Below, one piece after another: positions 6,854 to 52,100 of a stretch of 64,000 nt of DNA. The position numbers and the translations under genes were made by a program. The DNA lies in NCBI GenBank assembly GCA_024742495.1, contig JANSYJ010000001.1, positions 310,001 to 374,000 on the forward strand. The letters run 5' to 3'. Below the pieces are notes generated by a model that saw only the letters and a program-made list of their open reading frames with translations, ran no database searches and had not been told where the DNA came from. The DNA is from Bacteroidota bacterium (GTDB taxonomy: Bacteria; Bacteroidota; Bacteroidia; Flavobacteriales; Schleiferiaceae). Positions within the stretch are counted from its first letter, which is position 1; every line of letters begins with the position of its first letter.

Positions 6854-7624
6854 TTATTTCTTTTTGAAGGCATTGATAGCATTGCGGGTAAAATCGGAAA
6901 GCACCAGTTCACCACTAATGGCCGCCCGATCTGCTAAAAGCTGATCCCAATGCTCGGTGCCTTGCCAAAACACTTCTTTCAGCTGCCGCATCGCTTCTGG
7001 GTTAAAGCCTTTAAGTCTTGTAAGTAGGGCCTCTATCTCTTGGTCCATTTCTTCGGCACTTTCGTGCAGATGGTAATAAAGTCCGCGTTGATGCGCCCAT
7101 TCGGCATCACGCCATTCGGTAGCATTAATGGCCAATTCACTCATTCCACTAAGGCCAACTTTACGTTCTACCGCTGGGCCAACTACGAAAGGGCCAATAC
7201 CTACCGCCAGCTCCGATAGTTTCACAGAAGCGTGTTTGGTCGCGAAACAATAATCTACTGAGGAGGCGAGTCCAACCGCACCACCAACTGCCTTACCATG
7301 TACTCGGCCCACGATAAATTTCGGACAGGTGCGCATGGCATTAATCACATTGGCAAAGCCGCTAAAGAACTTTTTACCTTGATCCAAATCCTGAATAGAA
7401 ATCAATTCATCGAAGCTCGCTCCGGCACAAAAAGCACGCTCACCCGCTGAACGTAATAATAGGACCTTTACCGCCTCATTTTTTCCAGCCTCGCTTATCG
7501 CATCCGCCAATTCGGAAAGTAATTTACTCGGTAAGGAATTGCTAAGAGGATGAAAGAACTCGATGTGGGCAATACCATCAATAAGATCAGATTTTATATA
7601 GCCTTGTTGTAATGCGTCGGACAT
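6854..7624 (-). CDS. Enoyl-CoA hydratase/isomerase (crotonase) family protein
   Basis: The protein has 256 residues from the ATG at 7624; a TTG 21 bp upstream lies inside the -7 box and is rejected. Crotonase landmarks are the acyl-CoA site AFCAGASFDEL near residue 70 and the oxyanion-hole segment HGKAVGGAVGLAS near residue 115. The third landmark, normally containing a catalytic Glu or Asp, reads GIGPFVVGPAVERKVG, so the acid/base residue is not where a standard hydratase has it. It could serve the phenylacetate pathway (a PaaF-type step is otherwise missing from this window), leucine breakdown, or another acyl-CoA route. Only the family assignment is firm. Confidence 0.85.
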   Translation of the reverse strand: MSDALQQGYIKSDLIDGIAHIEFFHPLSNSLPSKLLSELADAISEAGKNEAVKVLLLRSAGERAFCAGASFDELISIQDLDQGKKFFSGFANVINAMRTCPKFIVGRVHGKAVGGAVGLASSVDYCFATKHASVKLSELAVGIGPFVVGPAVERKVGLSGMSELAINATEWRDAEWAHQRGLYYHLHESAEEMDQEIEALLTRLKGFNPEAMRQLKEVFWQGTEHWDQLLADRAAISGELVLSDFTRNAINAFKKK

Positions 7625-8633: not shown

Positions 8634-9218
8634 ATGAAAAAAGCATTTTACCTCCTGTTATTGGGCTTTTTATTCAGCTGCGGCAGCAAACACTATTACC
8701 GCGCAGTAGTCCAGCTAGACCCAATGGCGGAGGCTCAAGCTTTTAGCGATAGTCTTCTTCTAAATGGAGTGGACACCCTAGTTACTTATATAGATGCCTG
8801 CTCGGGTTGTATGCCAGGAGTTGAGGAAACCTATTATATTTTTTGGGTTGAAAATGGGGCTCGGAAATTAACCAAGATAAATCAGTACTCGCGCTACAAG
8901 GTTATAAGCCCGCTGCACTTCCCGATCTTTTTTCTCACTAATGAGGCCCAAGCCATCATGTCGGACCCCATTGAGAAGCCCTACTTTCAAATGCTCCATT
9001 ACCATTACGAAGTGCTAAAAGTGCATATCGGTAATACGCGCTATCAATTTCGAATTGATGAATTTGAAAAGAATCGAAATCAAAATAATTACAAGGTTTG
9101 GGCCGTCGATAAGCTTCGAGCCGATCTGTTTGAGCTTCAGCCTGGCCTGTGGCAAGCCCTCGATTATAAATATGAGAAGGTGAAGGAGGAGGTATTTCCC
9201 TTTAAGCACAATTACTAA
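8634..9218 (+). CDS. Unknown lipoprotein, 194 aa
   Basis: Begins MKKAFYLLLLGFLFSCGSKHYY, a lipoprotein signal with the lipobox FSCG (Cys16). The rest is soluble, rich in aromatic residues, with a CSGCMPG pair of cysteines near residue 57 that could form a disulfide or bind metal. No family recognised. The next lipoprotein gene starts two bases after its stop, so these two are an operon. Confidence 0.72.
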   Translation: MKKAFYLLLLGFLFSCGSKHYYRAVVQLDPMAEAQAFSDSLLLNGVDTLVTYIDACSGCMPGVEETYYIFWVENGARKLTKINQYSRYKVISPLHFPIFFLTNEAQAIMSDPIEKPYFQMLHYHYEVLKVHIGNTRYQFRIDEFEKNRNQNNYKVWAVDKLRADLFELQPGLWQALDYKYEKVKEEVFPFKHNY

Positions 9219-9219
9219 G

Positions 9220-9720
9220 ATGCGATCGTTATTACTTTTAATTCTACCCTTAATTTTATTGAGCTCTTGTCAACGCAGCTACAGCACTGATAAAGTGATT
9301 CGCGATAAGGAGAGCCTTCGAAAGTCCATATTTATTAGATCCCAACAGCCTTTAGATTTAAAGGATTGCATTGTGGACCATCAGTATCCTCCTCATTTCC
9401 CGGCCAAATTTTACTGGCGGCGTCCCGACACCACCAATTGGCCTCAAGATCAAAAGCAAAGTTTAATGGCCAAATACCAATTCGACAGTCTTGGAAGGGT
9501 CAGCGCTTACTTTTATCAAGGAAGTGGCTACTCCGCCATTTTTCCAAGGAAATATGACTTTAGTTATCATGAGCAAATTAGCCATCAAATCACCATGGTT
9601 TCCGACCAGAGTAAAGGTCAAGCCTATCAAATTTCCTATGCAGAGGAAGCTTTGAAAATGATTGAATTAGTGGATTCCAATCGCAAGGTTATAGAAGCCT
9701 TTACCGTAGTTAGGGATTAA
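9220..9720 (+). CDS. Unknown lipoprotein, 166 aa
   Basis: Starts with MRSLLLLILPLILLSSCQRS, a lipoprotein signal with lipobox SSC. The mature part is charged and beta-rich with no motif I recognise; segments such as KYQFDSLGRVSAYFYQG resemble the strand-turn repeats found in Bacteroidota lipoproteins. It is expressed with the preceding lipoprotein gene, one base away. Confidence 0.7.
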   Translation: MRSLLLLILPLILLSSCQRSYSTDKVIRDKESLRKSIFIRSQQPLDLKDCIVDHQYPPHFPAKFYWRRPDTTNWPQDQKQSLMAKYQFDSLGRVSAYFYQGSGYSAIFPRKYDFSYHEQISHQITMVSDQSKGQAYQISYAEEALKMIELVDSNRKVIEAFTVVRD

Positions 9721-10500: not shown

Positions 10501-11355
10501 ATGAAAATCGCTGTATGCTCCGCTAGCGGACAATTAGGAAGTGCCATCGTTAATCAGCTAAAAGCTCAAATTGGTGCGGAGCAGGTAATTGGTATTGCAC
10601 GAACACCCGCCAAAGCCGAGAAACTGGGGATTGAGATTCGCAAAGGCGACTACAACAGTTTGGAAGAATTTAAAGTTGCGCTGAAAGGAGTAAACAAAGT
10701 CCTTTTGGTATCGGGCATGGATGCCCCGGAAAAGCGAATTCCCCAGCATAGAAATGTAATTGAAGCCGCCGTCTATAATGGGGTGGGAAAAATCGTGTAC
10801 ACCAGCATCATTGGTGCTGAAAAAGATACCGCCTTCAGCCCTATTGTACAGAGTAACCGGCAAACCGAGGAGGATGTTAAAAACTCGGGACTTAGCTATG
10901 CCATTGGCAGAAATGGGATTTACATAGAACCCGATTTAGAGTACATCGAAACCTATAAAAAAGAAGGTGGGATTCGAAATTGTGCTGGAGATGGTAAATG
11001 CGTGTACACCAGTCGCGATGAATTGGCTTTTGCCTACAGTCGGCTATTATTACATGATCAATTGGAAGGCAAGAGCTATAATTTATGCGGGCCTGCAATT
11101 TCTCAGGCCGAGCTGGCCGTGCTAATAAATGAGGTGTATAAGACCAATTTAAATTTCCAATCGGTTTCCGTTGAAAGCTATAGACGCGAAAGGCAGGCCG
11201 CTCTTGGCGATTTCCTGGGTACGGTAATCGCTGGGATTTACGAAGGGATTCGCAATGGAGCCAATGATGTTCCATCGAATTACGCCACAGTGGCCGGAAG
11301 AGCGCATAAAAGCATTTTGGAGATCGTAAGGGATTTTTATCAGTGCCAAAATTAG
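10501..11355 (+). CDS. NmrA/QorB-type NAD(P)-binding oxidoreductase
   Basis: A 284-residue atypical short-chain dehydrogenase. The N-terminal Rossmann motif reads SASGQLGSAIV (GxxGxxG variant), followed by ARTPAKAEKLGIEIRKGDY, the pattern of QorB-like proteins, and KIVYTSIIGAEKD in place of the classical YxxxK site. QorB reduces quinones with NADPH, while NmrA binds the cofactor as a redox sensor; the sequence does not decide between them. The last four bases overlap the convergent ABM-domain gene. Confidence 0.8.
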   Translation: MKIAVCSASGQLGSAIVNQLKAQIGAEQVIGIARTPAKAEKLGIEIRKGDYNSLEEFKVALKGVNKVLLVSGMDAPEKRIPQHRNVIEAAVYNGVGKIVYTSIIGAEKDTAFSPIVQSNRQTEEDVKNSGLSYAIGRNGIYIEPDLEYIETYKKEGGIRNCAGDGKCVYTSRDELAFAYSRLLLHDQLEGKSYNLCGPAISQAELAVLINEVYKTNLNFQSVSVESYRRERQAALGDFLGTVIAGIYEGIRNGANDVPSNYATVAGRAHKSILEIVRDFYQCQN

Positions 11356-11705
11356 CCACCCTGCATCTCTAGCCACTTGCCAAATTCCACGCTTTGCTCC
11401 ACTTTGCAGATCATGCTATGGTAGTAATTATACCAGCGTTTTGCCCCTTGGTTTTTAGCTTTTAGGTGTCCCTGATGTTGACGCCATTTTTCAATCGCAT
11501 CTTGATCTCGCCAATAGGAGATGAAGATTCCCGTTTTTTCATCGCCCTTGGAGGAATAACCCAAAAAGCCTTCAACCTTATGCGATTCACGCATCATCTC
11601 GGCGTCGGTCTCCGTATAATTTTCCAGATCCTCGGATTTCTGAGAAATGAAAATAACGGCATAGAATGGCGCTTCGGGAGCGGCCTTATGCCAATGCGTA
11701 ATCAT
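11352..11705 (-). CDS. Antibiotic biosynthesis monooxygenase (ABM) domain protein
   Basis: A 117-residue single-domain protein. The order APFYAVIFISQ, ESHKVEGFLGYSS, GIFISYWRDQDAIEKWRQH and the C-terminal WYNYYHSMICKVE is that of dimeric alpha/beta ferredoxin-like ABM proteins (YgiN-like or heme-degrading relatives). No residue shows which substrate it oxidises, if any. It overlaps the convergent QorB-like gene by four bases. Some YgiN-type ABM proteins act on quinones, so a shared quinone theme is conceivable but unproven. Confidence 0.75.
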   Translation of the reverse strand: MITHWHKAAPEAPFYAVIFISQKSEDLENYTETDAEMMRESHKVEGFLGYSSKGDEKTGIFISYWRDQDAIEKWRQHQGHLKAKNQGAKRWYNYYHSMICKVEQSVEFGKWLEMQGG

Positions 11706-11870: not shown

Positions 11871-12005
11871 AGCTAACGGTTTGAATATGTGGCGTTTGGC
11901 ATTTCAACACTCCACTCTTTCAATTTAGTACAATGTTTATTTATTGCTACCATCTTCATATTAAGTGCTATCTGCCAAATGCACTATATTTTTTGTTATA
12001 AGCTG
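11871..12005. repeat. attC-like imperfect palindrome beside an orphan gene
   Basis: A 135-bp imperfect palindrome. Inner arms: ATGTGGCGTTTGGCA (11887-11901) pairs with TGCCAAATGCAC (11973-11984), one base bulged. Outer arms: AGCTAACGGT (11871-11880) faces TGTTATAAGCTG (11994-12005) with looser pairing. It lies directly after the stop codon of the low-GC lipoprotein gene, as attC sites lie after cassette genes. The terminal GTTAGCT on the minus strand is close to, but not exactly, the integron core GTTRRRY. Confidence 0.45.
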
Positions 12006-12009
12006 TTAT

Positions 12010-12600
12010 TTATTCAACTGTTAGTATTGATTCTTTTACATTTTCATCGCATTCCGTTTCTCCTTTAAAATCTATTTTTCCATCTTTATTAAAGTCATCA
12101 ATTTCGGAAATATAAAAGCTTTCACGATAAACACAATTCACATCACCTTTCGCTATCTTGAAAACGGAAATATAAGCATCACAACTCGGATATTGATAGT
12201 CCCAAATTACCATATAGTTTTCAGTATTATTAAACTCTGGAATATATATTTTATCGGAATTAATTCTATTTATAAAATTCTTTTTTGTCCTAACATCCAG
12301 CGTGTATCCAGCGACATCATTGATGACAAAACTTTGTCCAGATGAGAGCTTAATTTTAACTATCGTAAATATTTGTGGATCACCAATCAAGTCTTTAACA
12401 TTTTCCAAAATGATTGTGTCAAGTTTATTATCAAAGTCTAAGTCAATTTGATGCTGTTCAATTACAATAGTTTTGGTTGTATCAATTCCCTCATAATGTG
12501 AAAAGTCACCAATATATTTCACATTTTTTCTTTCTTTCTCTTGTTGAGTACAAGAGAATAAAAACATTCCGACTAATATTATTATTGTTAACTTCTTCAT
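12010..12600 (-). CDS. Unknown lipoprotein, AT-rich, cassette-like
   Basis: A 196-residue protein starting MKKLTIIILVGMFLFSCTQQ, a lipoprotein signal with lipobox FSC (Cys17). The C-terminal half contains DFNKDGKIDF, which resembles an EF-hand-like calcium loop (dockerin or FG-GAP type), and a late Cys. Base composition is clearly more AT-rich than the flanking genes. The gene sits between an attC-like palindrome at its 3' side and a motif AACAGTTGGCTACACGCAAC at its 5' side, and is followed upstream by a dispersed repeat. This suggests recent arrival. Function unknown. Confidence 0.7.
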   Translation of the reverse strand: MKKLTIIILVGMFLFSCTQQEKERKNVKYIGDFSHYEGIDTTKTIVIEQHQIDLDFDNKLDTIILENVKDLIGDPQIFTIVKIKLSSGQSFVINDVAGYTLDVRTKKNFINRINSDKIYIPEFNNTENYMVIWDYQYPSCDAYISVFKIAKGDVNCVYRESFYISEIDDFNKDGKIDFKGETECDENVKESILTVE

Positions 12601-12658
12601 TTCTTTAAAAGCTCATAACAGTTGGCTACACGCAACAGCCCGCGGAGCCTTACATAAA

Positions 12659-12982
12659 GGTTTTGCTGTAAGGGTTAAGCCTATAATAATCTTCCATTTT
12701 GTCTTGACACAACCGAGGGCTTGTCCCGTGCTCACGGGTTCCATTGAAAATTAATGAGACACCCGTAACCGAGGGCCTGCCCGAGCTCACAAGAGTCAAA
12801 AAAATATTAAGCCTTTGTAAAACGAAAAAACAAGTCAAGGCTTGCAAGCTCCCAACCTCAGATTTTCATTAGGCCAAGCTCGGTCGCGGGATCTCCTTCG
12901 GAGCTACGCGATCTCCCTAAGCCCTAATCTCAATCTATCGGCTCCTCGCTCGCTATGCCAGTCTCCTAGCCTTAACTATTCC
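12659..12982 (-). repeat. Dispersed repeat, copy A (minus orientation)
   Basis: Read on the minus strand this copy starts 18 bp after the paaZ stop. Over its first 150 bp it is about 95% identical to copy B at 33881-34151. It carries the hairpin-rich core TCGCGTAGCTCCGAAGGAGA (on the minus strand). It differs from B by a roughly 57-bp insertion that doubles the unit GTGAGCNCGGG...CCCTCGGTT: the two units lie at 12767-12790 and 12711-12735. Short frames across it are not genes. Confidence 0.85.
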
Positions 12983-13000: not shown

Positions 13001-15049
13001 TTAAGCTTGGTCGATCTTTTTAACCATCGTTAATATGGTGGCTAGAGCAACCGTTTCACCTTCCTCATCGTAAACATCCACATTAAATTTTACGATGCCT
13101 TTGGCGATATCATCTTCACTGCGTTTTTCCTGGTTAATTTTCTCCTTAACGGTGAATTTCACCCCGATGGTCATCCCGGGGTAAACCGGTTTGGTAAAGC
13201 GACATTCATCAATACCATAGTTCAATAAAACCGGTCCTTTCCGCGGATCTACAAACATACCCGCTGCCTTAGAAAGCACATAATAACCATGGGCTACTTT
13301 TCCTTCGAAAATGGTGCCTTCCAATGAAGTGGCATCCACATGCGCATAAAAATTATCGCCACTCACCTGAGCAAAACTAGCGATGTCGGCATCGGTTACG
13401 GTATGTCTGTGGGTGTACACCGTTTCACCTACTTTCAGCTCTTCAAAATGCTTACGGAAAACATGGATTTCCGACTCTGGCCTGGAAGCTCCGGGCTGAT
13501 AGATTTGCGTAATCTCCGTAATAGTATCTGGATGACCCTGGATAGCGGTGCGCTGCAAGTAATGAAGCACGCCTCGTTTGCCGCCCATTTCTTCACCGCC
13601 TCCGGCTCGTCCCGGACCACCATGAGTTAAGAGTGGCATTGGCGATCCATGGCCGGTGCTTTCTTTGGCACTTTTAGCATTTAAAACCAAAATCCTACCG
13701 TGCATATGCGCTGCTTCTACCACAAAGTCGCGCCCAATTTTATCGTCTGCAGTAATAATAGAACTCACCAAGGAGCCCTTACCCATATTGGCAAGCTCTG
13801 CCGCCTCATCAAGGTTTTTATAAGGAATTAAGGTCGATACCGGCCCGAAGCATTCCACTTCATGCACATCGGTATTGCTAAAGGGATTGTCGTTGCGGAA
13901 AAGGGTTGGACTCACAAAGGCGCCTTCTTCCCTTTTGGCTCCCAAAACCTCAAAATCGCGCAGGTCGCCATATACAATCTCCTGAGAGCTTTTTAGGCGT
14001 TCAATATTTTCGGCAAGGCGATCTACTTGTTCCATAGAGGCCAAGGAACCCATGCGGGTTTTCTCATTGCGAGGATCGCCAATGGCGGTGCGCTCTAATC
14101 TTGCAATAAGGGCTTCTTGTACGGCGTCTATTCTGTTTTCGGGCACTAATATGCGGCGAACAGCGGTACACTTTTGACCTGCTTTAGTGGTAATTTCCCT
14201 TTGTACTTCTTTTACAAAAATGTCGAACTCTGGCATGCCTGGCTCCACATCTGTACCTAAAACCGAGGCGTTTAAAGAATCTGCTTCAAGGTTAAAAGTC
14301 ACCGAACGATCGATAATATGTGGCAAGGCTTGCAGCTTTTTACCAGTAGCCGCGGAGCCGGTAAAGGTTACCGTGTCGCCAGTATTTACATGATCTAAAA
14401 TACCCCTTCCCAAGCCTGTTACTAATTGCAGGGCTCCATCGGGTAAAATGCCCGATTTAATTATTTCGCGCACCACATGCTCGGTTAAAAAAGAGGTGTA
14501 TTCCGAAGGTTTTACTACCGCTGGGACACCGGCCATCAGATTCACTGCAATTTTTTCCAGCATGCCCCAAACCGGAAAGTTAAAGGCATTGATGTGGATT
14601 GCGACCCCTCTCTTGGGCACCATAATATGATGACCTATAAAGGAGCCATTTTTTGAAAGCGGCGCATGCGCTCCATCAACGTAATAAGGCAAATCTGGAA
14701 ATTGGCGACGCAAAGAAGCGTTGGCAAAGAGATTTCCAAAGCCTCCTTCAATATCTACCCAAGAATCTATTTTGGTAGCTCCCGTTTTAAAGCTGGTTTC
14801 ATAAAACTGATTCTTAAGCCCATTAAGATGCAGCGCCAGGGCTTTTAGCATTAATCCTCTTTCCTGAAAGGTCATTTTCCGCAAGGCCGGACCGCCCACT
14901 CGGCGACCATATTCCAGTATCGCTTGATAATCGAGGCCGGCACTAGACACTACCCCTATTTCCGTTCCATGAATCGCGTCACGGGCAATGAGTTCAGATC
15001 CTTCTCCGGAGACCCACTCGCCCATTACAAAGTTTTGGATTTGCTGCAT
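13001..15049 (-). CDS. paaZ: PaaZ: oxepin-CoA hydrolase / semialdehyde dehydrogenase
   Basis: A 682-residue bifunctional enzyme of aerobic phenylacetate breakdown. Residues 1 to about 520 are an aldehyde dehydrogenase with Glu in [15 protein letters not shown] and the catalytic Cys294 in GQKCTAVRR, close to Cys295 of the E. coli enzyme. Residues about 535-682 are a MaoC-like (R)-hydratase domain with [10 protein letters not shown] carrying the active Asp and His. It opens oxepin-CoA and oxidises the resulting aldehyde to 3-oxo-5,6-dehydrosuberyl-CoA. The length and domain order are those of full PaaZ. It stands 38 kb from the main paa cluster, alone, with its own promoter. Confidence 0.96.
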
Positions 15050-18073: not shown

Positions 18074-19768
18074 ATGCGCATCCCTTATTTACTTTTTAGC
18101 ATCCTGATAAGTACTTCCTCCCTTTGGGCTCAATACCAAAGCCGACTGGTGCTTAAGGAGGCCATGCCCGGGCGACAGCATTATTTTGGAAGTTCGGGCG
18201 ATATCGATAATAATTTTGCTGTGATTACCGCAACCCATGGACGCAACCCTTGGGCTTGGAACGGAGGACTGGCTTATGTATATGAGTACAAAAACCAGCA
18301 CTGGATATTGCGCAATATCCTTCATCCTGATATTTCGGCCAATGAAGATCGCTTTGGACAAAATGCCTGCGCGATATCTGGAAATTGGATTATAGTTGGC
18401 GATTGGATGAACAGCCATCATAAAAATGGTACTGCTCATATTTTTCAGCTTAAAGCTGATACCGCCTGGGAACATGTCACTAGCCTCAATCCCAAAAGTT
18501 TAAAACCAAGTGAGCATTTTGGAAACCGGGTAGCCATTTCTGGAAATATTGCTGCCGTTTCCAGCTATAAGGCAGTTTATGTTTTTGAATATAAACAAGG
18601 TGAGTGGCGGCAAACAGCCGTTTTAGAAGGAGATCAAAAAGAGGAAAGCGGCTTCGGAATGAGCCTAGCTATAAGAGGTCAACAAATTTTGGTGGGCTCC
18701 ACTTGGGAAGACGGCAAAGAGCTGAATAATTTGGGCGCCATTTACGTTTTTAAAAAGCTCGACCAAGAGTGGCAAGAGAGTCAGAAAATACTTCCTCCAA
18801 AAGAATTACAGGAAGATGGATTAAACTTTGGGCACAGCATTGATTTTAATGCTAAATATCTTGCGGTTGGCTGTCCTACCAAGGATATGGGACTGGCGGG
18901 CAGTGCGGGAGCTGTATTCCTGTTTCGCAATAGATCTGGCCAATGGAGCTACGATCGCTTACTTTACAATGAAAACTTTGGTTATGGTATTTACGGTTTT
19001 GGTAATCAGGTTTCCCTTTCGGGTGATCGCCTTGCAGTAAGCGAAAATCAAAACCGCGATTTTGAGGCCAGTGCTTATATATTAGATATTAGTGGGAAGA
19101 ATTTTAAGTCTATTGCCAAAATCCAAGAAACGGAAGGCACCGCCGGAATAGATTATGCAGATGGCTTATTGAAATTGTCCGAAAACCATCTATTGGTTGG
19201 GGACCCTGGTGATGAGTTCTGCGATGATTTCAGCGGAAACTGTGGCAAGGCCTACTTCTATCAATTAGCGGCCAGCCCCACTGCAACAAAGCCTAAGAAC
19301 AGTATAGAATATGCTTCCAATTGGGGCTTTTCAAAGGATCAAATAAGGAGGATTCGCGAAAAGTTTAATGGTGATAGTATAGTATTCGATCACATTAATG
19401 GCGATTTGGTTTTTAAAATGCGTTCTCGGGAAAGCAGAAAATGGGGCATGTACCAAGGGGAGCAGGAAATAATTCCCGCCCAATACGACAGCTTGGCTTT
19501 CCATGCCTGGAACAGTCCCTTTACAATCGTGCAACAAAATGGAAAGCTCGGAGCTTATAGCCATGCTTTTAGCGATGAAGGTCAATTATCTGTGCCCTGT
19601 CGCTACGAAGATCTACATGTTTACCAATATGAGGGTGCCTTTTGGCTTGCCGCAAAAAGGAATGGTAAATGGCGCTGGGTAAATTGGTATTCTGGCGAAG
19701 AAGCCGGTATTGAATACGATTACCATCAAGAACTTTTTATCCTTAAAAACTGGCAACCAGGAAGGTAA
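18074..19768 (+). CDS. Secreted FG-GAP/beta-propeller protein with WG-like C-terminus
   Basis: A 564-residue protein with signal peptide MRIPYLLFSILISTSSLWAQ. Residues about 25-400 hold FG-GAP-type repeats, seen as recurring blocks such as FGQNACAISGNWIIVGDW, HFGNRVAISGNIAAVSS, GFGMSLAIRGQQILVGS and NFGHSIDFNAKYLAVGC, probably one propeller. Residues about 440-564 switch to WG-like repeats (RKWGMYQGEQEIIPAQYD, GKLGAYSHAFSDEGQL, NGKWRWVNWYSG). The combination on one chain is unusual. It lies 34 bp after the sulfotransferase gene on the same strand and may be co-transcribed. No T9SS sorting domain is seen. Its stop codon is one base from the displaced KAS III gene end. Confidence 0.75.
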   Translation: MRIPYLLFSILISTSSLWAQYQSRLVLKEAMPGRQHYFGSSGDIDNNFAVITATHGRNPWAWNGGLAYVYEYKNQHWILRNILHPDISANEDRFGQNACAISGNWIIVGDWMNSHHKNGTAHIFQLKADTAWEHVTSLNPKSLKPSEHFGNRVAISGNIAAVSSYKAVYVFEYKQGEWRQTAVLEGDQKEESGFGMSLAIRGQQILVGSTWEDGKELNNLGAIYVFKKLDQEWQESQKILPPKELQEDGLNFGHSIDFNAKYLAVGCPTKDMGLAGSAGAVFLFRNRSGQWSYDRLLYNENFGYGIYGFGNQVSLSGDRLAVSENQNRDFEASAYILDISGKNFKSIAKIQETEGTAGIDYADGLLKLSENHLLVGDPGDEFCDDFSGNCGKAYFYQLAASPTATKPKNSIEYASNWGFSKDQIRRIREKFNGDSIVFDHINGDLVFKMRSRESRKWGMYQGEQEIIPAQYDSLAFHAWNSPFTIVQQNGKLGAYSHAFSDEGQLSVPCRYEDLHVYQYEGAFWLAAKRNGKWRWVNWYSGEEAGIEYDYHQELFILKNWQPGR

Positions 19769-19769
19769 A

Positions 19770-20138
19770 CTACACCCTATAGGTAATGGCATTAATACTC
19801 ATGCCCGCGCCAACGGAAGCCAGCATAATTACATCGCCTTCCTCTAAATCATGTCCTTCTAGTTCACCCTTGCGTAAAAGATCCAATAAGGTGGGTACTG
19901 TGGCCACAGAGCTATTGCCTAAAAGGTGTATGCTCATGGGCATGATGCCTTCGGGCTCCGGTGTTTTATAAAGGCAGAAAAAACGTTTAATGATGGCCTC
20001 GTCCATTTTCTCATTGGCTTGATGGATGAGTACTTTTTTAACCCGGTCGATACTTAAGCCCGAGCGGTCCAAGCAAAGTTTCATGGCCGCAGGCACTCGG
20101 GTAAGGGCAAATTGGTAAATCTTTTGCCCCTGCATTTT
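19770..20138 (-). pseudogene. Displaced 3' end of the KAS III gene (truncated duplicate)
   Basis: These 369 bp are 98% identical (7 substitutions) to 21661-22029, the 3' end of the intact beta-ketoacyl synthase III gene, in the same orientation. The copy starts exactly at the stop codon and runs to codon Met234; an ATG there opens a 121-residue frame that keeps the His and Asn of the active site but lacks the nucleophilic Cys. Six of the seven differences are synonymous; the seventh changes Arg287 to Cys. Homology stops abruptly after TGCATTTT. It is the old gene end left behind when the mercury-type cassette arrived. It is unlikely to make an active enzyme. Confidence 0.92.
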
Positions 20139-20218
20139 GCTCTTTCGGGTTTTACTAAGGCCAAAAACCCAGGCTAAAATTTATCCAAGGCCGTGGAAAT
20201 ATCGTATTTTAGCATTTG

Positions 20219-20228
20219 CTTAAATAAG
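20219..20228. promoter_or_regulatory. Possible operator of the ArsR-type regulator
   Basis: CTTAAATAAG is a short inverted repeat (CTTA/TAAG) 19 bp before the ATG of the regulator gene at 20248, in AT-rich DNA. ArsR proteins commonly repress their own operon from such sites. Only the palindrome is seen. Confidence 0.3.
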
Positions 20229-20247
20229 TAACAATGTGACTTAAATT

Positions 20248-20622
20248 ATGGAAAACAATTCTTGCATAAGGCAACAAGCCGATATTGGACAAATAAATCG
20301 TTGCAAAGAAACCGTTTCGGACTTAAGCGAATCGTTCGACTATTTAGCAAATGGACTATCATTGGTCGGAAATAGCGTCAGACTGAAAATTCTTTACCTA
20401 CTCTTTGAAGAAAAAAGACTTTGTGTGTGTGATTTAAGCGACATTCTCGGAATGAACATTTCTGCTATTTCTCAACATTTGCGAAAAATGAAAGACCGAA
20501 GTCTATTAGAAACGGAAAGAGATGCTCAAACTATTTTTTATTCACTAACGAATGAATATAAAAAATTACTAAATCCATTTTTTCAGATACTTGGCAAAAA
20601 CAAAAGCTTAGAAACGGTATGA
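20248..20622 (+). CDS. ArsR/SmtB-family metal-sensing repressor, CadC-like
   Basis: A 124-residue winged-helix regulator. The recognition region ISAISQHLRKMKDRSLLETE and the metal-site motif RLCVCDL (Cys59, Cys61) in the alpha-3 helix are typical. Extra N-terminal cysteines (Cys6 and Cys19) recall CadC, in which N-terminal cysteines complete a soft-metal site. It likely represses this operon until Hg(II), or another thiophilic metal, binds. The next gene, merTP-like, starts inside its stop codon (ATGA overlap), so sensor and transporter are coupled. Composition is much more AT-rich than neighbouring chromosome. Confidence 0.88.
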   Translation: MENNSCIRQQADIGQINRCKETVSDLSESFDYLANGLSLVGNSVRLKILYLLFEEKRLCVCDLSDILGMNISAISQHLRKMKDRSLLETERDAQTIFYSLTNEYKKLLNPFFQILGKNKSLETV

Positions 20623-21218
20623 AAAACGAAAACAAGTTAATTGGTGCAGGTTTGTTGTCTGCACTTACAGCTTCATTATGCTGTATTACGCCTGTTTTGG
20701 CTCTAATCGCTGGAACAAGCGGGGTTGCTTCCACATTTTCTTGGATTGAGCCTTTTAGACCATATTTAATTGGACTGACAATTTTAGTTCTGGGCTTTGC
20801 TTGGTTTCAAAAACTTAAACCTCAAAAAGAAATCGACTGTGATTGTGAGACGGACGAAAAACCAAAATTTATTCAGTCTAAAAAGTTTTTAGGAATTGTA
20901 ACCGTATTTGCAATTGCAATGTTGGCTTTCCCATATTATTCAGGAATTTTTTACTCAAAAAAAGATAAGGAAATAGTTTTAGTTGAAAAATCGGACGTTA
21001 AAACAACGGAATTTAAAATCAGCGGAATGACTTGTGCGAGTTGCGAAGAACACGTGAATCACGAAGTAAATAAACTCAATGGAATTGTAAACTCAAAAGC
21101 GTCCTATGAAAATGGAAATGCAATCGTTGTATTTGACAAAACCAAAATCGACGAAACAGAAATTGAGAAAGCAATTAACTCAACAGGTTATAAAGTAACT
21201 GATAAAAAAGAAAACTAA
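20619..21218 (+). CDS. merTP: Mercuric transport protein MerTP (MerT-MerP fusion)
   Basis: A 199-residue fusion. The N-terminal part is MerT-like with a paired Cys21-Cys22 followed by a proline-containing helix (SLCCITPVLALIAG), a second helix and a third near residues 92-112, plus the pair Cys74/Cys76 (DCDCE) in the cytoplasmic loop. The C-terminal part (about residues 128-199) is a heavy-metal-associated domain with GMTCASC (Cys139, Cys142). The protein would capture Hg(II) outside and pass it inward. Usually uptake is paired with mercuric reductase MerA, which is not present here. It overlaps both neighbours by a few bases. Confidence 0.9.
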   Translation: MKNENKLIGAGLLSALTASLCCITPVLALIAGTSGVASTFSWIEPFRPYLIGLTILVLGFAWFQKLKPQKEIDCDCETDEKPKFIQSKKFLGIVTVFAIAMLAFPYYSGIFYSKKDKEIVLVEKSDVKTTEFKISGMTCASCEEHVNHEVNKLNGIVNSKASYENGNAIVVFDKTKIDETEIEKAINSTGYKVTDKKEN

Positions 21219-21424
21219 TGGAAGTTCAAAAAAAATCAGAAATTACTTGTTCAAATTGCGGACATAAAAAAATAGAAGATATGCCAACTGATGCTTGTCA
21301 ATTTTTTTACGAGTGCGAGAACTGTAAAACGATTTTGAAACCAAGAGAAGGAGATTGTTGTGTTTATTGCTCCTATGGAACTGTACCTTGTCCACCAATT
21401 CAAGAAAACAAAGCTTGTTGCTAA
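21218..21424 (+). CDS. GDCCVxC domain protein, 68 aa
   Basis: A cysteine-rich small protein with 11 cysteines in 68 residues: a zinc-ribbon-like start (CSNCG, residues 11-15; CENC, 33-36), the family signature GDCCVYC (residues 46-51) and a terminal ACC. GDCCVxC proteins are encoded next to mercury transport genes in many bacteria, but their task, perhaps cytoplasmic metal binding, is unsettled. Its start overlaps the merTP stop by one base. Confidence 0.9.
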   Translation: MEVQKKSEITCSNCGHKKIEDMPTDACQFFYECENCKTILKPREGDCCVYCSYGTVPCPPIQENKACC

Positions 21425-21660
21425 CAGGCCAACATTAAAAGCCATAACATTTGTATTTCGCACCGGTCAAAATGAAATAAAAATTGCAAATGAGTATGTC
21501 TTTAGCAGGGCTGAAATCAGAATCTGAAAAATTAAAAATTTCTGGCTCGTTTCAAGCTTTGTCCTTAACCGAAAGTTCAGTGCTTCGGAATCGCCTAATT
21601 TATATAAACTAATCGTTGAATAACAACTTTAAATAATCTGTAAAACCTTGGCTAGAGCGT
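21425..21660. other. Non-coding right end of the mercury-type cassette
   Basis: AT-rich DNA between the GDCCVxC stop and the intact KAS III stop. It begins AACAGGCCAACATTAAAAGCC right at the stop codon, similar in flavour to the motif near 12620. No gene and no full palindrome was found. Confidence 0.4.
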
Positions 21661-22029
21661 CTACACCCTATAGGTAATGGCATTAATACTCATGCCCGCG
21701 CCAACGGAAGCCAGCATAATTACATCGCCTTCCTCTAAATCATGTCCTTCTAGTTCACCCTTGCGTAAAAGATCCAATAAGGTGGGCACTGTGGCCACCG
21801 AACTATTGCCTAAAAGGTGTATGCTCATGGGCATGATGCCTTCGGGCTCCGGTGTTTTATAAAGGCGGAAAAAACGTTTAATGATGGCCTCGTCCATTTT
21901 CTCATTGGCTTGATGGATGAGTACTTTTTTAACCCGATCGATACTTAAGCCCGAGCGGTCCAAGCAAAGTTTCATGGCCGCTGGCACTCTGGTAAGGGCA
22001 AATTGGTAAATCTTTTGCCCCTGCATTTT
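21661..22029 (-). repeat. Direct repeat: replacement 3' end of KAS III gene
   Basis: The 369 bp from the KAS III stop codon to codon 234, repeated at 19770-20138 in the same orientation with seven substitutions. The two repeats bracket the ArsR-merTP-GDCCVxC cassette, so recombination between them could delete it and still leave an intact gene. Confidence 0.92.
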
Positions 22030-22725
22030 AATATAGCGGGTATTATGTCCTACTTCTGGATTATTACTCTCATCGTAGTTTAAGAAATAGGCTTCTTCCT
22101 CGGTAAAAGTTTGGGAGGCGGTACTTAAAATTCCTTTTTTCAAATCAGTATCTATTGCCTCTACCACCGCTGCTCCGGCACCATCCGAAAAGATCATCGA
22201 GTCGCGATCATGCGGATCGAGCTTTCGGGAGAGCGTTTCCGCGCCGATGACCAAATAGCGTTTTCCTTGTCCAGCTAAGATGTAATTATAGGCCAATATC
22301 ATCCCTTGCACCCAACCTGGGCAGCCATATAGGATATCAAAGGCAATGCAATTGGGGTTTTTAATTTTTAAATCGTGCTTTACCCTGGTGGCTAGACTGG
22401 GTAAAATATCCGATTGTATTTTACCATGAGGGATATTGCCGAAGTTATGCGCAACGATAATTCCATCCAGATTTTCGGGATCCACCTTACTATCATTTAT
22501 GGCTTCCCGGGCCGCAATGGTTGCTAAGTCCGATGTTTGTTGGTTTTCCTCCGCATATCGTCGTTCACGGATTCCAGTAATCTCTTCAAACTTCCGAATT
22601 ACCGTTTCGCCGTCTCCTTCAATCCTCTTACCCTCGCGGGTGTAGAACTCATTTCCGGCAAAATTCGCATTGGGAACTTTTAGCTTGGGTACGCAGCTTC
22701 CAGTTCCGGTGATCTCTAAATTCAT
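21661..22725 (-). CDS. 3-oxoacyl-ACP synthase III (KAS III/FabH-like) family protein
   Basis: A 354-residue thiolase-fold condensing enzyme with the full triad: Cys135 in ILYGCPGWVQG, His271 in VLIHQANEKMDE and Asn307 in IHLLGNSSVATVP. The early segment GSCVPKLKVPNANFAG and the length fit the FabH-like branch common in Bacteroidota; true FabH starts fatty-acid chains from acetyl-CoA, whereas relatives make other beta-ketoacyl or head-to-head products. The last third of the gene is duplicated at 19770-20138, so this gene is probably a hybrid of resident 5' and incoming 3' parts. It still reads as intact. Confidence 0.9.
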   Translation of the reverse strand: MNLEITGTGSCVPKLKVPNANFAGNEFYTREGKRIEGDGETVIRKFEEITGIRERRYAEENQQTSDLATIAAREAINDSKVDPENLDGIIVAHNFGNIPHGKIQSDILPSLATRVKHDLKIKNPNCIAFDILYGCPGWVQGMILAYNYILAGQGKRYLVIGAETLSRKLDPHDRDSMIFSDGAGAAVVEAIDTDLKKGILSTASQTFTEEEAYFLNYDESNNPEVGHNTRYIKMQGQKIYQFALTRVPAAMKLCLDRSGLSIDRVKKVLIHQANEKMDEAIIKRFFRLYKTPEPEGIMPMSIHLLGNSSVATVPTLLDLLRKGELEGHDLEEGDVIMLASVGAGMSINAITYRV

Positions 22726-33880: not shown

Positions 33881-34151
33881 GGAATGGTTACGGCTAGGAG
33901 GCTGGCATGGCGAGCGACGAGCCGATAGATTGAGGTTAGGGCTTAGGGAGATCGCGTAGCTCCGAAGGAGATCCCGCGACCGAACTTGGCCTAATGAAAA
34001 TCTGAGGTTTGGAGCTTGCAAGCCTTGACTTTTTGTTTCGTTTTACAAAGGCTCTTTATTCCTTTTGGTTTTTGTGAGCTCGGGACATGCCCTCGGTTGT
34101 GTCAAGACAAAATGAAAGACTATTATAAATTAACCCCTTACAACAGTACCT
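33881..34151 (+). repeat. Dispersed repeat, copy B (plus orientation)
   Basis: Begins GGAATGGTTACGGCTAGGAG and ends near CCTTACAACAGTACC. The first 150 bp match copy A (12659-12982, inverted) at about 95%. It holds the hairpin core GTAGCTCCGAAGGAGATC and one GTGAGCTCGGG...CCCTCGGTT unit, followed by GTGTCAAGACAAAATG, which is shared by all three copies in part. It lies downstream of the gene ending at 33648, in the same direction. Confidence 0.85.
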
Positions 34152-34320
34152 GTACGCAACGCCCTGCTGGATGCTGAACCGAGCTAATGGTTAGAATCAA
34201 TATTTTAATTGGAGATAAAAAGTCAAGCAATCCTGCTAATCCAAGAATTCTCCCTTGGCATTTTTTTCGGTAAAAATTTAGATATTTCAGCTTTAAGCCT
34301 TTGCTAAAGCGGATGTGACT

Positions 34321-46100: not shown

Positions 46101-49100
46101 TCACACTGCTGTTGTCACCCCAAAGGAATGTCCAAGGATCAGTAGCTGCTGCACGATAGTAAACATTAGTGATGTTTTGATCGCCAAACCAGTCTTCCTG
46201 GGCATACCAGAAGCTTAATTGTGGATTGATCAAAGCACTAAGGTCAATTACCGGAGAAACTAAACGGGTAGTGTCGCCAGATCCTGAAGGACCTTGAGAA
46301 ACAAACACCGCGTTAAGAGCTCCCGCATAAGGGGCGCCAACGGCACCGCCAGTAGATCCAGAACCTAAGCTCCAAACAAGACTAGTGTCTGAAATAGCTT
46401 CATTAGTCCAACAAGCAATACTAGCAGAGCTTAATTCAAAGCTCTCAAAGAAAGGTGCTACGTAAGTACCACAACTTGAACAGCTTGAAGTAAAGCTAGC
46501 TAAGGTATCGCCTGCAGCGGTAGTACCAGATGCAGTATGTACACCAACTGTATCGCCATTAGGCTGAATTACAACAAGGCCAACTTCCGATGGGAATCCA
46601 CCCGCGGCACTTAATGTAACATAGGTTGGGATATTATCACAAAGGGTTAAGCTATCATTAAAGACACTGCCCGTTGAGAAGTTACTTCCTAAGGTTCCTA
46701 CTGCAACACCATTTTGCCATACGGTAATGGTTGCTCCGTTCCATCCATCTCCGAATGTATCTAAGAGATCAAAGTAATAGAGACATTGCTCGCTTGCAGC
46801 ACAGGCGGTAGTTGTGAAGGATGCAGGGCCAGCTGTTAAGGCTACACCATTTGCTGATCCACAGCTATCCGTTACGTAGAAATCATAAGCAGTACTGGCC
46901 ATTAAGCCGGTAATGTTTAGGGTATCATTAGTAGAGTTAATTACAGTACCTGAACCTGGGCTAAAGCCAGCAGGACCATATTCAACATCCCAGCTCGTTC
47001 CTGTTCCGGCGGTCCAAGTAACTAAAGCACTGTTATTATCCGAAGAAATAACGCTTAGGTTAGAAGAAGCAAAACAAGATGGAGCTTCAACTACTGAGAA
47101 GTCATCAATTGACATGTCAGAATAGAAGCTACTTCCAGCCACACCTTCTAATAAGAAACGGTAGGTACCAGCGGCTAATCCACTAAGCAGTACTTGTTTC
47201 TCCATCCAAGGATCGGTTTGTACCGCTTGTTGCTGACCAACAATACTATCCAAGGCAATTCGTGTTCCAGCGCTTGTTTCAGCCCAGATACGAAGGTTAC
47301 CCATAGTTTGACCATGCATGTGATAGTAGAAACTAAGCATTGGAGTGGTTAGGGTAGAGATATCAATAGCTGGAGAATACAGCACATTGGTATCACCTAA
47401 GCTCGAAGGCGATGAAGTTTCTAAGAACATATAAGTACCACCTACACCAACGGTATTATCTACGGTTGGACCGGTTCCTGAAGAGTTCTCATTAAAGCCA
47501 GTAGCATCTTCCGATTCCCAGCGTGGGTTACCACTAACATTGGTTGTCCAACAGTTTTCATAAGAAGCTTGGTTTCCTAGCGTAATCGACTCGAAGTCGG
47601 TAGAGTAAGGAGCCGCAAAGCTTGCAGGACAGCTGGTAGTAAATGTGAATGGACCTGTTGGAAGCGATACATCGCCCACAGCACAACTATCTTGTACATA
47701 GAAGTCATAAGCCGTTGCCGACATCAAACTGCTAAGCATGATAGTATCATTGGTAACATTCATTACAGTACCTGTTCCTGGTACAAAACCAGCAGGACCA
47801 TATTCTAAAATCCAGTTGCTTGAGCCACCGGTAGTCCAGAATACATCTGCAGTTGAGCTCGTAATGTTTGTTGCGCCTAAGTTAGAAGGTGCAAAACAAG
47901 ATGGAGCTTCGTAGATACGGATATCATCTATAGCGTTATCACCGTAGAAATCAGAACCAGATCCACCAGACTCAGCGCGGAAACGCATGCGGAAAAGACC
48001 ATTGTTATAGGTAAATGCCGCCGGAATAGTATCCTCAAATTTCTGCCATCCATTGGTTGCAATTGCAATGGTATCAGCGGTAATCCAGCTAGTGCCATCC
48101 CAGTACTCTCTAATAGTGATGTTAACTGGAGAATATCCAACACCACACATCGCGTAGTAGAACTCTAAGAATGGAGTGGTTAATGCAGATACGTCAATAA
48201 CAGGAAGCTCAAGGCTTACGCTATCATCGCTACTGGATTGATCCATCCATGCATAGTTTCCACCATTTCCGGTATTATCGGATAGAGCAGCACACTGTAC
48301 GCTATTGGCATTAGTACTAAATAACCAAGGGCCACCTGCACCAGCAGATTGAGTGAAACACAATGGAGTACTTGTTCCATCGAAACTCTCATAGAATGGA
48401 GCCACGATAGGACCACAAGCACTACAATCGGTAGTGAAACTTGCAAGGGTATCGCCCTGTGCTAAAGATGCACCAGCAACATGCTCGCCCTGGGTATCAT
48501 TTAACGGATTGGTTAAAGTGAAACCAATTTCTGTGGTGAAACCTCCCTGAGTACTTAAAGTAACATAGGTTGGAAGTCCATCACAAAGATCTACGTTAAT
48601 GGTCGGGAAGTTATTTCCAGTTGTAAATCCAGCACCATAAGTTCCTACAGGGATTCCTGCTTGCCAGATGGTGATTTCATTTCCATTCCATCCATCACCC
48701 CAGGTATCGGTAAGATCAAGGGTAAAGGTACACTGGCTGCTAGCAGCACAAGCACTAGTAAAGAAAGATACCGGACCGGTAAAGGTTGATACATCACCTA
48801 CAGCACAACTGTCGGCAACGTAAAAGTCATAACCGGTGGCAGCGCTTAATCCGGAGATTGTAGCGGTATCATTAGTTGCAACCATCATGGTTCCGCTTCC
48901 TGGCATAAATCCAGTAGGACCGTACTCAATAAGCCAGTTGCTTGCATTACCTGGCATCCAGGTTACTTCAGCGCTGTTATTGTCGGTGCTAATAACGCTT
49001 AGTGCAGTAGGCGCAAAACATGTAGGCGCTTGGCTAACACTAAAGTCGTCAATAGACATATCACTATAGAAAGAAGAACCAGCCTCACCTACAAATACAA

Positions 49101-52100
49101 AACGGTAAGAACCGGATGCTAAGGTTGGGGTAATGGTTTTTACCATCCAGGGGTCGGTTTGAGCTGCTTGCTGTTGCCCGATGATACTATCTAAGATGGT
49201 ACGGGTTCCAGCAGCATCTTCGGCATAAACATAAAGGTTACCCATTGTTTGCCCGAACATGTGATAGTAGAACTCAATTTGAGGAACGGTTAAGCTAGAG
49301 ATATCGATAAGTGGTGAGTACAGCACATTGGTGTCTCCTAAGCCCGAAGGCGAAGAGGTTTCCAAGAACATATAAGTACCACCAACACCAACGGTATTAT
49401 CTACGGTTGGTCCCGTTAGGGATGAGTTCTCGTTAGAACCTGAAGCATCTTCTGATTCCCAACGTGGATTGCTACCAAGATTGGTAGTCCAACAGTTTTC
49501 GTAAGAAGCTTGATTACCTAAAGTGATGTTCTCAAAGTTTGTGCTATAAGGCGCAGGGAAACTAGGAGCACATAAAGTAGTAAAGGTAATTGGACCGGCA
49601 GCACCGGAAATATCGCCTGCACCACAACTATCGGTAACATACACATCATAAGCCGTTGCCGACATTAAAGAACTTAAGGTTACCATACCTGTGGTAGAAG
49701 TAGCGATAAGGCCAGTTCCTGGCATAAAACCACTAGGACCGTACTCGATGGTAGAACCTTGGTTGCTTGCTCCTGATGTCCAGCTAATATCCGCTGAAGT
49801 AGCAGTAACATTGGCTGAAGCCAGGCTGCTTGGAGTTAAACAACTTAAACAGGTGTTTACTTCTACTAAGTCGATTGCTAAATCGCTGGTAAAAGAAGAA
49901 CCTCTAGTATAAAAGAACTCGATGTAAATCGTTTGACCTAAGTAGGCATCCAAATTGATTCCCACTTGTTGCCAAGGATCTAATTCATCAGTTTGCAACT
50001 GACCAGGACCATAGCTAAATACATTGGTAAAAGGACCGCTTGCAGAAGTAGAAACGCCTACATCTAACACTCCAATTGTAGCACCATAAGCGTGTAGCCA
50101 GAAGGTAAGTTCTACATTTTGAGAAGCAGCACTTAAGTCAACTGCAGGAGAAACCATGGCTGCGGTAGCCGCACCACTAGAAGTCTCAACAAAGATATAG
50201 TGGCTTCCACTTTGAGGACCAGAAGGGCCAGTGTTAGAAGATCCAGTATTATTATTATCATAAACCCAAGTACCGTTTCCACCGGCAATGTTTCCAGTGA
50301 AGGTAGTGGTGTTATCGAAGTCCTCGGTAAACAAGCTACCTGAAATACCGGTAGTACAAGTAATTACACGTGGAGCAGCCAATGTTGTGCTAAATGCACC
50401 CGGACCTGATTGTGAGGCAATACCTCCAGCTCCACAATCTGCGGTTACGTAAAACTCGTAGTTTGTATTTGCTGTTAATCCTGTAATGGTCAAGAAGGTA
50501 TCAGGATGGGCCATCATAGTAGTACCTGTACCTGGTGTAAAGCCAGCTAAGCCATATTCAATATTAAATACGGTTCCGGAACCATTAGGGTCAGCCCAAG
50601 CCACAGTAGCACTATCGGCATAAGCCATAATAGTGGTAAAAGTACCTACTGGTAAACAAGAAGCTGGTGTGTATTCATCCGAACCAATATCTGGTGTAGT
50701 GGCATCACGCATATCACCATCGATATCCATGGTAATAGAAGCAATTGGAGTAGCAGCACCATTGAGAATAGCTCCTGCTACATGCACGTCGGTGGCTGGG
50801 TTAATAAGAATTGGATCTCCAGATACCGAGTTGGTATTGTTTCCAGCGCGGTTCGCTTGCCAAGTGGCAAGATCAGATTGAACACCTGCATCATAAGCCA
50901 AGCTAGCACCGTTTACGGTGTAGTAGGCATTGTAATCTAGGTTTACTGGACTTGACGTTGTACCGGTAGTAGTGGTATTATCAGAGAAGTAAGCCGCATA
51001 ATTGCTGGTTCCGTAAAATAAGTTGTTACGTACATCAACTCCTCGTGGATCATTGAAATAACCACCATAAGCACTAGTGCTGCTTGAATTGGTTACAAAA
51101 CTGTTATAATAAACGTTTACCGTATCACAGTCGTCGCAATAAAATCCTTCTTGACCAGTGGCTCCAGAAGAAATGAAGCTGTTATTGGCAATTAAGGAAG
51201 TGCGAGGAGAGTTTCCATCAAAATTCAAGTCGGTAATGTAAGCGCCATAATAAGGTGCGTTTACCTCATTGCCAGTCATCTCTAAGCCAACCATATCATA
51301 AATGGCGAAACCATAACCAGTAGAATAAGTCATACCGCTAGCAGTGTTCCCGCTGAGGGTAACGTCATAAGCGTTGTCGCTCATGTAGTAACGGTAGTAG
51401 TTATTCATCATGGTATTATTCATCGCTACGAAGTTGGAATCGTCAAAAGAGGAAACCTCGAAGTGAATACCAAATGAACCATTTACAAAGGCACTATTTT
51501 GAATAGTAATATTATCACCCGCATCGGTTTCTCCATATTGAGAAGTAGCGGTTGATGAAGAACCAATACAGGTTAACTCACTGGTTGAGGTGGTAGTCCC
51601 CATAACGATACGACAAGCGTCAAGCATGAAGTTGTCATTATCATTGGTCATACGTACACCCCAAGAATCCAATGTTCCGTCGTGGGTAATGGTTAAGTTT
51701 TTAAAGCTTACATAATCCGCACCATCCATCATGATTACCTCACGTTGGTTGCTAGCGGTATTATCATAAGCTAAAGTGGTTGTAGCAGAGTCGCCACCAT
51801 CGAAAGTGATGGTATTGGCCGCGCTAGTTCCCATAATAGCTGGTAGGTAAACTGTATCGGTATAGCTAGCTGGAGCTACATTAAAGGTACATGCACCTAC
51901 CACTCCTAAACTTACTAAATCTGCCGCAGCAGCTGAAAAGCTCGTATAGTTAGTACTGCTTGCCGCTGCACTTGCGTTGATGGTATAAATACCCGACATC
52001 CCTGTAGAAAGAGTTCCATATACAACATCATCTACATAATAGGTTTTAGCACCCGCAGTAGCGCCATCAACACCGAAATTCGGGAAGATAGAAATGATGT

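Follow-up and report, generated by a model that had tools for sequence, protein, structure and literature searches.

The stretch of DNA analysed here, referred to as the window, comprises 64,000 nucleotides of a genome of the Schleiferiaceae (Flavobacteriales; assembly GCA_024742495.1, contig JANSYJ010000001.1, positions 310,001 to 374,000; G000:C22:310001-374000 in the numbering of this study), and all coordinates are window positions unless genome positions are stated. Between the convergent genes for an FG-GAP repeat protein and a beta-ketoacyl-acyl carrier protein synthase III-like enzyme (KAS III) lies a trio of genes, here called the mer cassette, and the origin of this arrangement is the subject of the present analysis (Table 1). 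The trio is enclosed by a 369-bp direct repeat (19770-20138 and 21661-22029), the right copy of which is the 3' end of the KAS III gene. Comparison of the window with itself confirmed this repeat, which had been described in an earlier note on the same DNA together with its same orientation and its seven differences, six of them synonymous. The G+C content between the copies is ~0.32-0.36 against ~0.41-0.47 in the surroundings (about 10 points lower). The naming of the trio in the note holds for MerTP and GDCCVxC but not for the regulator, which had been called CadC-like: no cadmium-type model is among its matches, and the match is to the general ArsR/SmtB model. The cassette does not contain MerA. 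There are no tRNA or Rfam gathering-level matches in the window; terminator-like sites were not found, and promoter-like sites were no more numerous than in shuffles.

Table 1. Features of the KAS III locus, in window coordinates.
Feature	Position	Strand	Evidence
FG-GAP repeat protein gene; stop one base from left KAS III copy (ancestral junction)	18074-19768	+	Pfam FG-GAP_2; same order with a single KAS III in G002/L029
Left copy, orphaned KAS III 3' end (codons 233 to stop)	19770-20138	-	362/369 identity; ACP_syn_III_C
Join J1: KAS III GCATTTT overlapping cassette word CA(Y/-)TTTT	20132-20138		Profile alignment start; shared words
mer cassette 5' non-coding part, lacking its first ~26-36 nt; ATTTGCTTAAATAAG, a conserved word, at 20214-20228	20139-20247	+	Cassette 5' profile
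ArsR/SmtB family regulator, 124 aa	20248-20622	+	NF033788, 75.6 bits (cut-off 55); PF01022
MerTP fusion mercuric transport protein, 199 aa	20619-21218	+	NF033556, 311.6 bits (cut-off 180)
GDCCVxC domain protein, 68 aa	21218-21424	+	NF041374, 105.5 bits (cut-off 40)
Decayed attC-like site without its 5' arm; cassette 3' end = GTT box 21615-21617	21499-21621	+	Model R1, 31.3 bits, model positions 1-132
43-bp spacer from cassette end to KAS III stop	21618-21660		Sulfotransferase tails do not match convincingly
Intact KAS III (beta-ketoacyl-ACP synthase III-like); right copy = 21661-22029	21661-22725	-	PF08545/PF08541; orthologues in 6/6 congeners

From the KAS III stop codon (CTA, which is TAG reversed), the repeat extends to TGCATTTT, at codons 233/234; it spans codons 233-354 and the stop, and the flanks diverge immediately on either side. 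At an E-value of 0.001 or better, the segment occurs in only two places in the 3.6-Mb genome. The single nonsynonymous difference between the copies lies at codon 287, which encodes Cys in the left copy and Arg in the KAS III gene and in six congeners (dN, nonsynonymous divergence, 0.0035; dS, synonymous divergence, 0.079). The left copy is free of stops and frameshifts and encodes a 121-residue open reading frame (ORF). A local duplication, in which the KAS III 3' end was copied by template switching or slippage at or after insertion of the cassette and the stub has drifted since, would agree with the presence of both copies in one genome, with their 98% likeness and with their equal distance to congener G002 (300 of 369 bases identical for the left copy, 298 for the right). 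However, the probability of at most one nonsynonymous change among the seven is 0.009-0.027 for a useless stub decaying neutrally since such a duplication and 0.81-0.88 for two functional alleles, the selection strength behind both ranges being taken from the G002 comparison, which is saturated at synonymous sites. A duplication must also account for the end of the copy falling exactly at the stop codon, and it is considered unlikely. The seven differences resemble strain divergence between working genes and appear to fit two alleles better than one decaying stub, in line with the suggestion of the note that the copies diverged mostly as working alleles.

Orthologues of KAS III, 81-90% identical, are present in all six congeners. 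In G002, the order is sulfotransferase, FG-GAP and KAS III, with the stops of the latter two genes abutting and a single KAS III 3' end, which is the empty site that the note had proposed to look for in a close relative. The left junction in the window is therefore the ancestral one, and J1 (20138/20139) and J2 (21660/21661) are new. The sulfotransferase gene abuts KAS III in G003 and G004 and lies ~25 bases from it in G006, whereas other genes stand between the two in G001 and G005; these varied neighbours imply that the gap between the convergent genes acquires DNA repeatedly. A remnant of a sulfotransferase C-terminus at 21630-21660 was considered and rejected, because the tail of the window's own sulfotransferase scores nothing there; the tails of congeners score better (G003: 1/1000 shuffles) but were discounted, since their scores include KAS III bases common to both.

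A second KAS III 3' end was found at none of 99 related KAS III loci (L010-L020, L028-L035 and L074-L153, G003 and L074 being probably the same genome) within the flanks examined, which measured 1.5-6 kb, less at contig ends, and ~8-10 kb for L028-L035. The only other DNA matches across these loci were two words of 17 and 20 nt, and the J2 word was absent from viral contigs. KAS III as a recurrent integration site was rejected on the count of 0/99. Prophages and islands that restore their target genes in this manner are known, with e14 in icd as an example, and a site-specific element that integrated at codon 234 and restored the 3' end from a carried copy would account for an intact gene and for an insert flanked by a repeat reaching the stop codon. 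Such an element is nevertheless very improbable: besides the lack of second 3' ends at the 99 loci, the 369-bp segment is found nowhere else in the genome, and no integrase candidate is present among the ORFs of at least 60 aa within 20139-21660, an absence that the note had also reported. Furthermore, the ends of the mobile unit in four other genomes differ from the ends of the repeat, as follows.

A MerTP relative at E 1e-60 or better was found in 57 of 393 genomes of the order, with the window's own genome counted. When 28 such mer loci were compared with the window interior, five matched over at least 1300 bases, including the 3' spacer, at 86-87% (L062 and L156-L159), and in the remaining 23 the similarity reached no further than 21430, close to the final stop codon. 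In four genomes (L156-L159), the similarity ends sharply on both sides and the outside DNA differs, defining a unit of 1587-1589 bp from GTT to GTT. The unit starts with GTTACCC (GTTACCCACAAGCT) and finishes in an attC-like hairpin, the last arm of which, CCGCTACTTTTCATATACAAGACCGTT, ends in a GTT box; in L062 (G009) both ends are present but diverged. The reading of the note that the insert is foreign is supported. In G243, the mer unit forms part of an extended array in which almost all of the small genes share one strand and matches to the attC model occur between them. Such an array, abrupt borders and a conserved stem are what characterises integron-type cassettes and attC sites, and it is mainly on the borders and the array that the cassette reading rests. 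The 5' stretch 20139-20260 has a full match among 88 genomes of the family only in its own genome, with partial matches in G009 and G063, and none of the 14 plasmid records matching the window interior covers 80% of it. The attC model had no match at E 0.1 in 15 other loci (eight KAS III loci of relatives and seven more distant mer loci), and hence not every mer locus of the order belongs to this cassette family. At a related mer operon in G063 (L154, G063:C77), a 3' gene fragment, czcA-like by eye, lies directly upstream at 2745-2870 in the same orientation as the KAS III stub; it was dropped as a parallel case because a second copy was not found in the draft genome, in which the contig ends after 4 kb.

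The hairpin model, R1, was built from seven sites: two from the window's own genome, four from mer cassettes and one from a Riemerella anatipestifer plasmid (5962-6093 of L182, NZ_CP072192.1). Across the seven aligned sites, all 133 of 133 cells of the 19 pairs are paired, against 26-41% in slid versions. The covariation score exceeded that of 500/500 shuffles, but 16 of the 19 pairs never vary and the structure was named from the same sequences; the two compensated pairs represent one GC/CG swap in the same two sequences, a number reached in 113/500 shuffles, and the covariation is therefore thin. The fold energies of three intact sites were not below those of shuffles. A search of the genome with R1, in which 150 of 1584 first-look candidates were scored, gave eight matches at E 0.1 or better; two were building sites, one was the complementary strand of a building site and five were new, including genome positions 331499-331621 (the mer unit of the window) and 321871-322002 (E 1.4e-8; the second single cassette of the window, described below). 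Matches at E 0.001 occur in six of the seven genomes of the genus; G002, which has the empty site, is without any.

Neither recombination end of the window's cassette is intact. At its 3' side, the match of 21499-21621 to R1 has an E-value of 6e-4 over 186 kb, 4e-5 over 11.5 kb and 0.0115 genome-wide. The segment 21528-21617, which terminates on the GTT box, is a 78% DNA match to another attC-like site in this genome, and the attC remnant shares 76% identity over 89 bases with an R. anatipestifer plasmid just after estT. The site is not intact: 8 of 19 pairs were flagged as non-standard, and the attC stem is missing from the predicted fold. At the 5' side, 20139-20204 aligns to a profile of cassette 5' regions with 9.5 bits from model position 37 when the KAS III bases are excluded, and none of the controls was as good (the top score was 6.3 among 1000 shuffles and 4.9 among up to 1000 window segments); when the end of KAS III is included, the alignment gains to 13.6 bits and starts at model position 26-27. 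Because the alignment starts at model position 27-37, the first ~26-36 bases of the cassette have been replaced by KAS III sequence. The word conserved in this 5' part may be an ArsR operator, a candidate suggested by its position and conservation.

The note had regarded TGCATTTT as the end of an element. However, the ends of the mobile unit lie elsewhere: the 5' GTTACCC would stand ~26-36 bases beyond the join, and the 3' GTT box is 43 bases before the repeat and the KAS III stop. Since the cassette is cut inside its own 5' end and its 3' border stands off the repeat, the repeat would be a by-product and not the end of an element: it extends from an illegitimate join as far as the stop of the gene, beyond which two alleles with unlike neighbours are no longer homologous. 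TGCATTTT is probably the join at which KAS III and the cassette shared a short word. Comparison of the window with a typed composite of the relatives' cassettes gives the shared words CATTTT/CATTTTA, so that the cassettes of other genomes point to a probable microhomology of 6-7 nt at J1; random joins reach 6 shared nt in 0.25% of cases. This length bears on whether two strain alleles, FG-GAP-KAS III and mer-KAS III, were written in tandem by the assembler. The strain-level divergence of the copies and the draft state of the genome (32 contigs) would permit such a chimera, but the ~6 bases shared at J1 are presumably too few for graph assembly to fuse, the contig is 703 kb long and contamination is 0.1%; an assembly error is accordingly given little weight.

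The reading that is preferred here, at a probability of about 0.64, is that the trio is a decayed integron-type cassette of the Flavobacteriales set beside KAS III together with the scar of an illegitimate recombination. The cassette, consisting of the regulator, MerTP, GDCCVxC and the attC-like site, would once have stood in a closely related allele, 43 bp downstream of its KAS III stop. From this allele, a fragment comprising the cassette and no less than the final third of KAS III would then have entered a cell in which KAS III abutted the FG-GAP gene. One side of the fragment would have recombined homologously within KAS III, while the other would have been joined without real homology, at the CATTTT probably common to KAS III codons 233/234 and the 5' region of the cassette. 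In the simplest form, the fragment would have been end-joined into a circle of ~1.9 kb, and a single crossover would have left a copy of the homologous segment to either side of the insert. KAS III would thereby have stayed whole and the left copy become an orphaned stub, with the cassette, deprived of both recombination ends, probably immobile. Of the origins that the note had offered, two agree with this, namely a deleted remnant and an exchange by homology with related DNA. The genome encodes a ComEC-type competence protein; the domain was also matched in 10 of 14 control genomes.

Several observations weigh against this preferred reading. A donor allele that combines the cassette, the 43 bp and KAS III in the absence of the left stub was not found among the seven genomes of the genus, which include no second strain of the species. 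The attC-like site of the window reaches only E 0.0115 in the genome-wide search, and the first 34 interior bases, when aligned locally by themselves, give a weak result (p 0.08 relative to shuffles and 0.014 relative to window segments); the case for the 5' truncation rests on the collinear profile alignment and not on this local test. The proposed microhomology derives from cassettes that are ~13% diverged, the window itself reads CATTTTG, and two of the four relatives' cassettes carry an extra base in the join word, giving 6 nt instead of 7. Finally, in work on Escherichia coli, three of four joints formed by strict homology-facilitated illegitimate recombination (HFIR) were without junction homology and the fourth had 1 nt (PMC3240628).

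The same source provides an experimental precedent for the proposed event. In E. coli, 56 of 60 recombinants gave a polymerase chain reaction product diagnostic of a homologous gene that had been partly duplicated, 14 sequenced recombinants had 109-950 bp duplicated beside foreign DNA, and these duplications were ascribed to a single crossover of circular molecules missing part of the fragment; a micro-homology of 3-10 bp at the illegitimate junction is described as usual in competent species (PMC3240628). In the window, as in these insertions, a homologous gene is partly duplicated next to foreign DNA, and one homologous and one illegitimate side are proposed. However, the E. coli events involved laboratory plasmids, whereas the present case is read from sequence, and strict HFIR usually deletes resident DNA (PMC3240628). 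In type VI secretion system immunity arrays and Rhs loci, an old 3' end is likewise left beside new DNA, and HFIR has been proposed there too; there, however, new variants displace old ones, whereas in the window the same enzyme stays and the cargo is unrelated (PMC5361080). The aph(3')-IVb unit of R. anatipestifer consists of a single gene with a 140-bp attC-like 3' end and enters by natural transformation without flanking homology (PMC13148043, in the part used here). It resembles the mer cassette in having an attC-like 3' end, which may or may not be of the same sequence family, and in its Flavobacteriales host; in contrast to the window, gene duplication is not mentioned in that part of the report (PMC13148043). 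On the R. anatipestifer plasmid of the hairpin model (L182), further attC-model matches of 27-47 bits at 7086-7220, 8661-8856, 9569-9702 and 10577-10712 sit between macrolide, beta-lactam and other genes.

With integron gene cassettes, in particular those located outside integrons, the likeness extends to one or more genes followed by a hairpin with AAC...GTT boxes, to GTT borders and to same-strand arrays. The window's own genome has an array that consists of small genes and of empty units, with palindromes of several families (G000:C22:1-14.3 kb, genome positions; L064, 1-15651), and ends beside a tyrosine recombinase of the Xer/integron type (376 aa, N-terminally extended; G000:C22:14521-15651), which may act on the sites. 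This recombinase passes NF040815 (229.6, cut-off 220) but falls below the cut-offs for integron integrases (TIGR02249, 200.7 of 265; NF011946, 117.1 of 435); nothing in the genome exceeds the TIGR02249 cut-off, and an IntI of a canonical integron was not found by it. The cassette of the window also differs from integron cassettes in holding three genes and being decayed. A second single integron-type cassette lies in the window at 11871-12619, 9.5 kb from the mer unit, its 5' border placed by eye; it carries a 196-aa gene, lipoprotein-like by eye (12010-12600, minus strand), and an attC-like site (11871-12002, minus strand, 58.9 bits), and the genes flanking it (11352-11705 and 13001-15049) are adjacent in congener G003. 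The genome has an integron-like array and scattered single cassettes, two of them in the window.

Two other repeats were noted in the window. A direct repeat at 47197-49437 (300 nt at 77%, spacing 1941) perhaps reflects repeated domains. An inverted repeat pair, 12616-12982 and 33881-34193 (185 nt at 92% and 120 nt at 76%), brackets ~21 kb containing the KAS III locus, and an inversion between its arms could take place.

The scar itself is of a known kind, and the surrounding cassette system is the more interesting part. Neither the mer cassette nor the array is named in the titles or abstract starts returned by literature searches, although absence is not proven by this. It is tentatively suggested, at somewhat less than even odds, that the Flavobacteriales may possess an integron-like system in which an Xer-type recombinase replaces the classical IntI and metal- and drug-resistance cassettes occur as scattered single insertions in the chromosome, the mer unit of the window being one such insertion that was subsequently acquired together with part of the adjacent gene and disseminated through recombination anchored in that gene. 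If the preferred reading of the locus is true, a resistance cassette would have become fixed outside an array by losing both of its recombination ends, with a gene stub left as the scar. The genome would also be tied to a family of attC-like sites that stands beside resistance genes on a Riemerella plasmid, and the cassette system of the order would be traceable with one covariance model.

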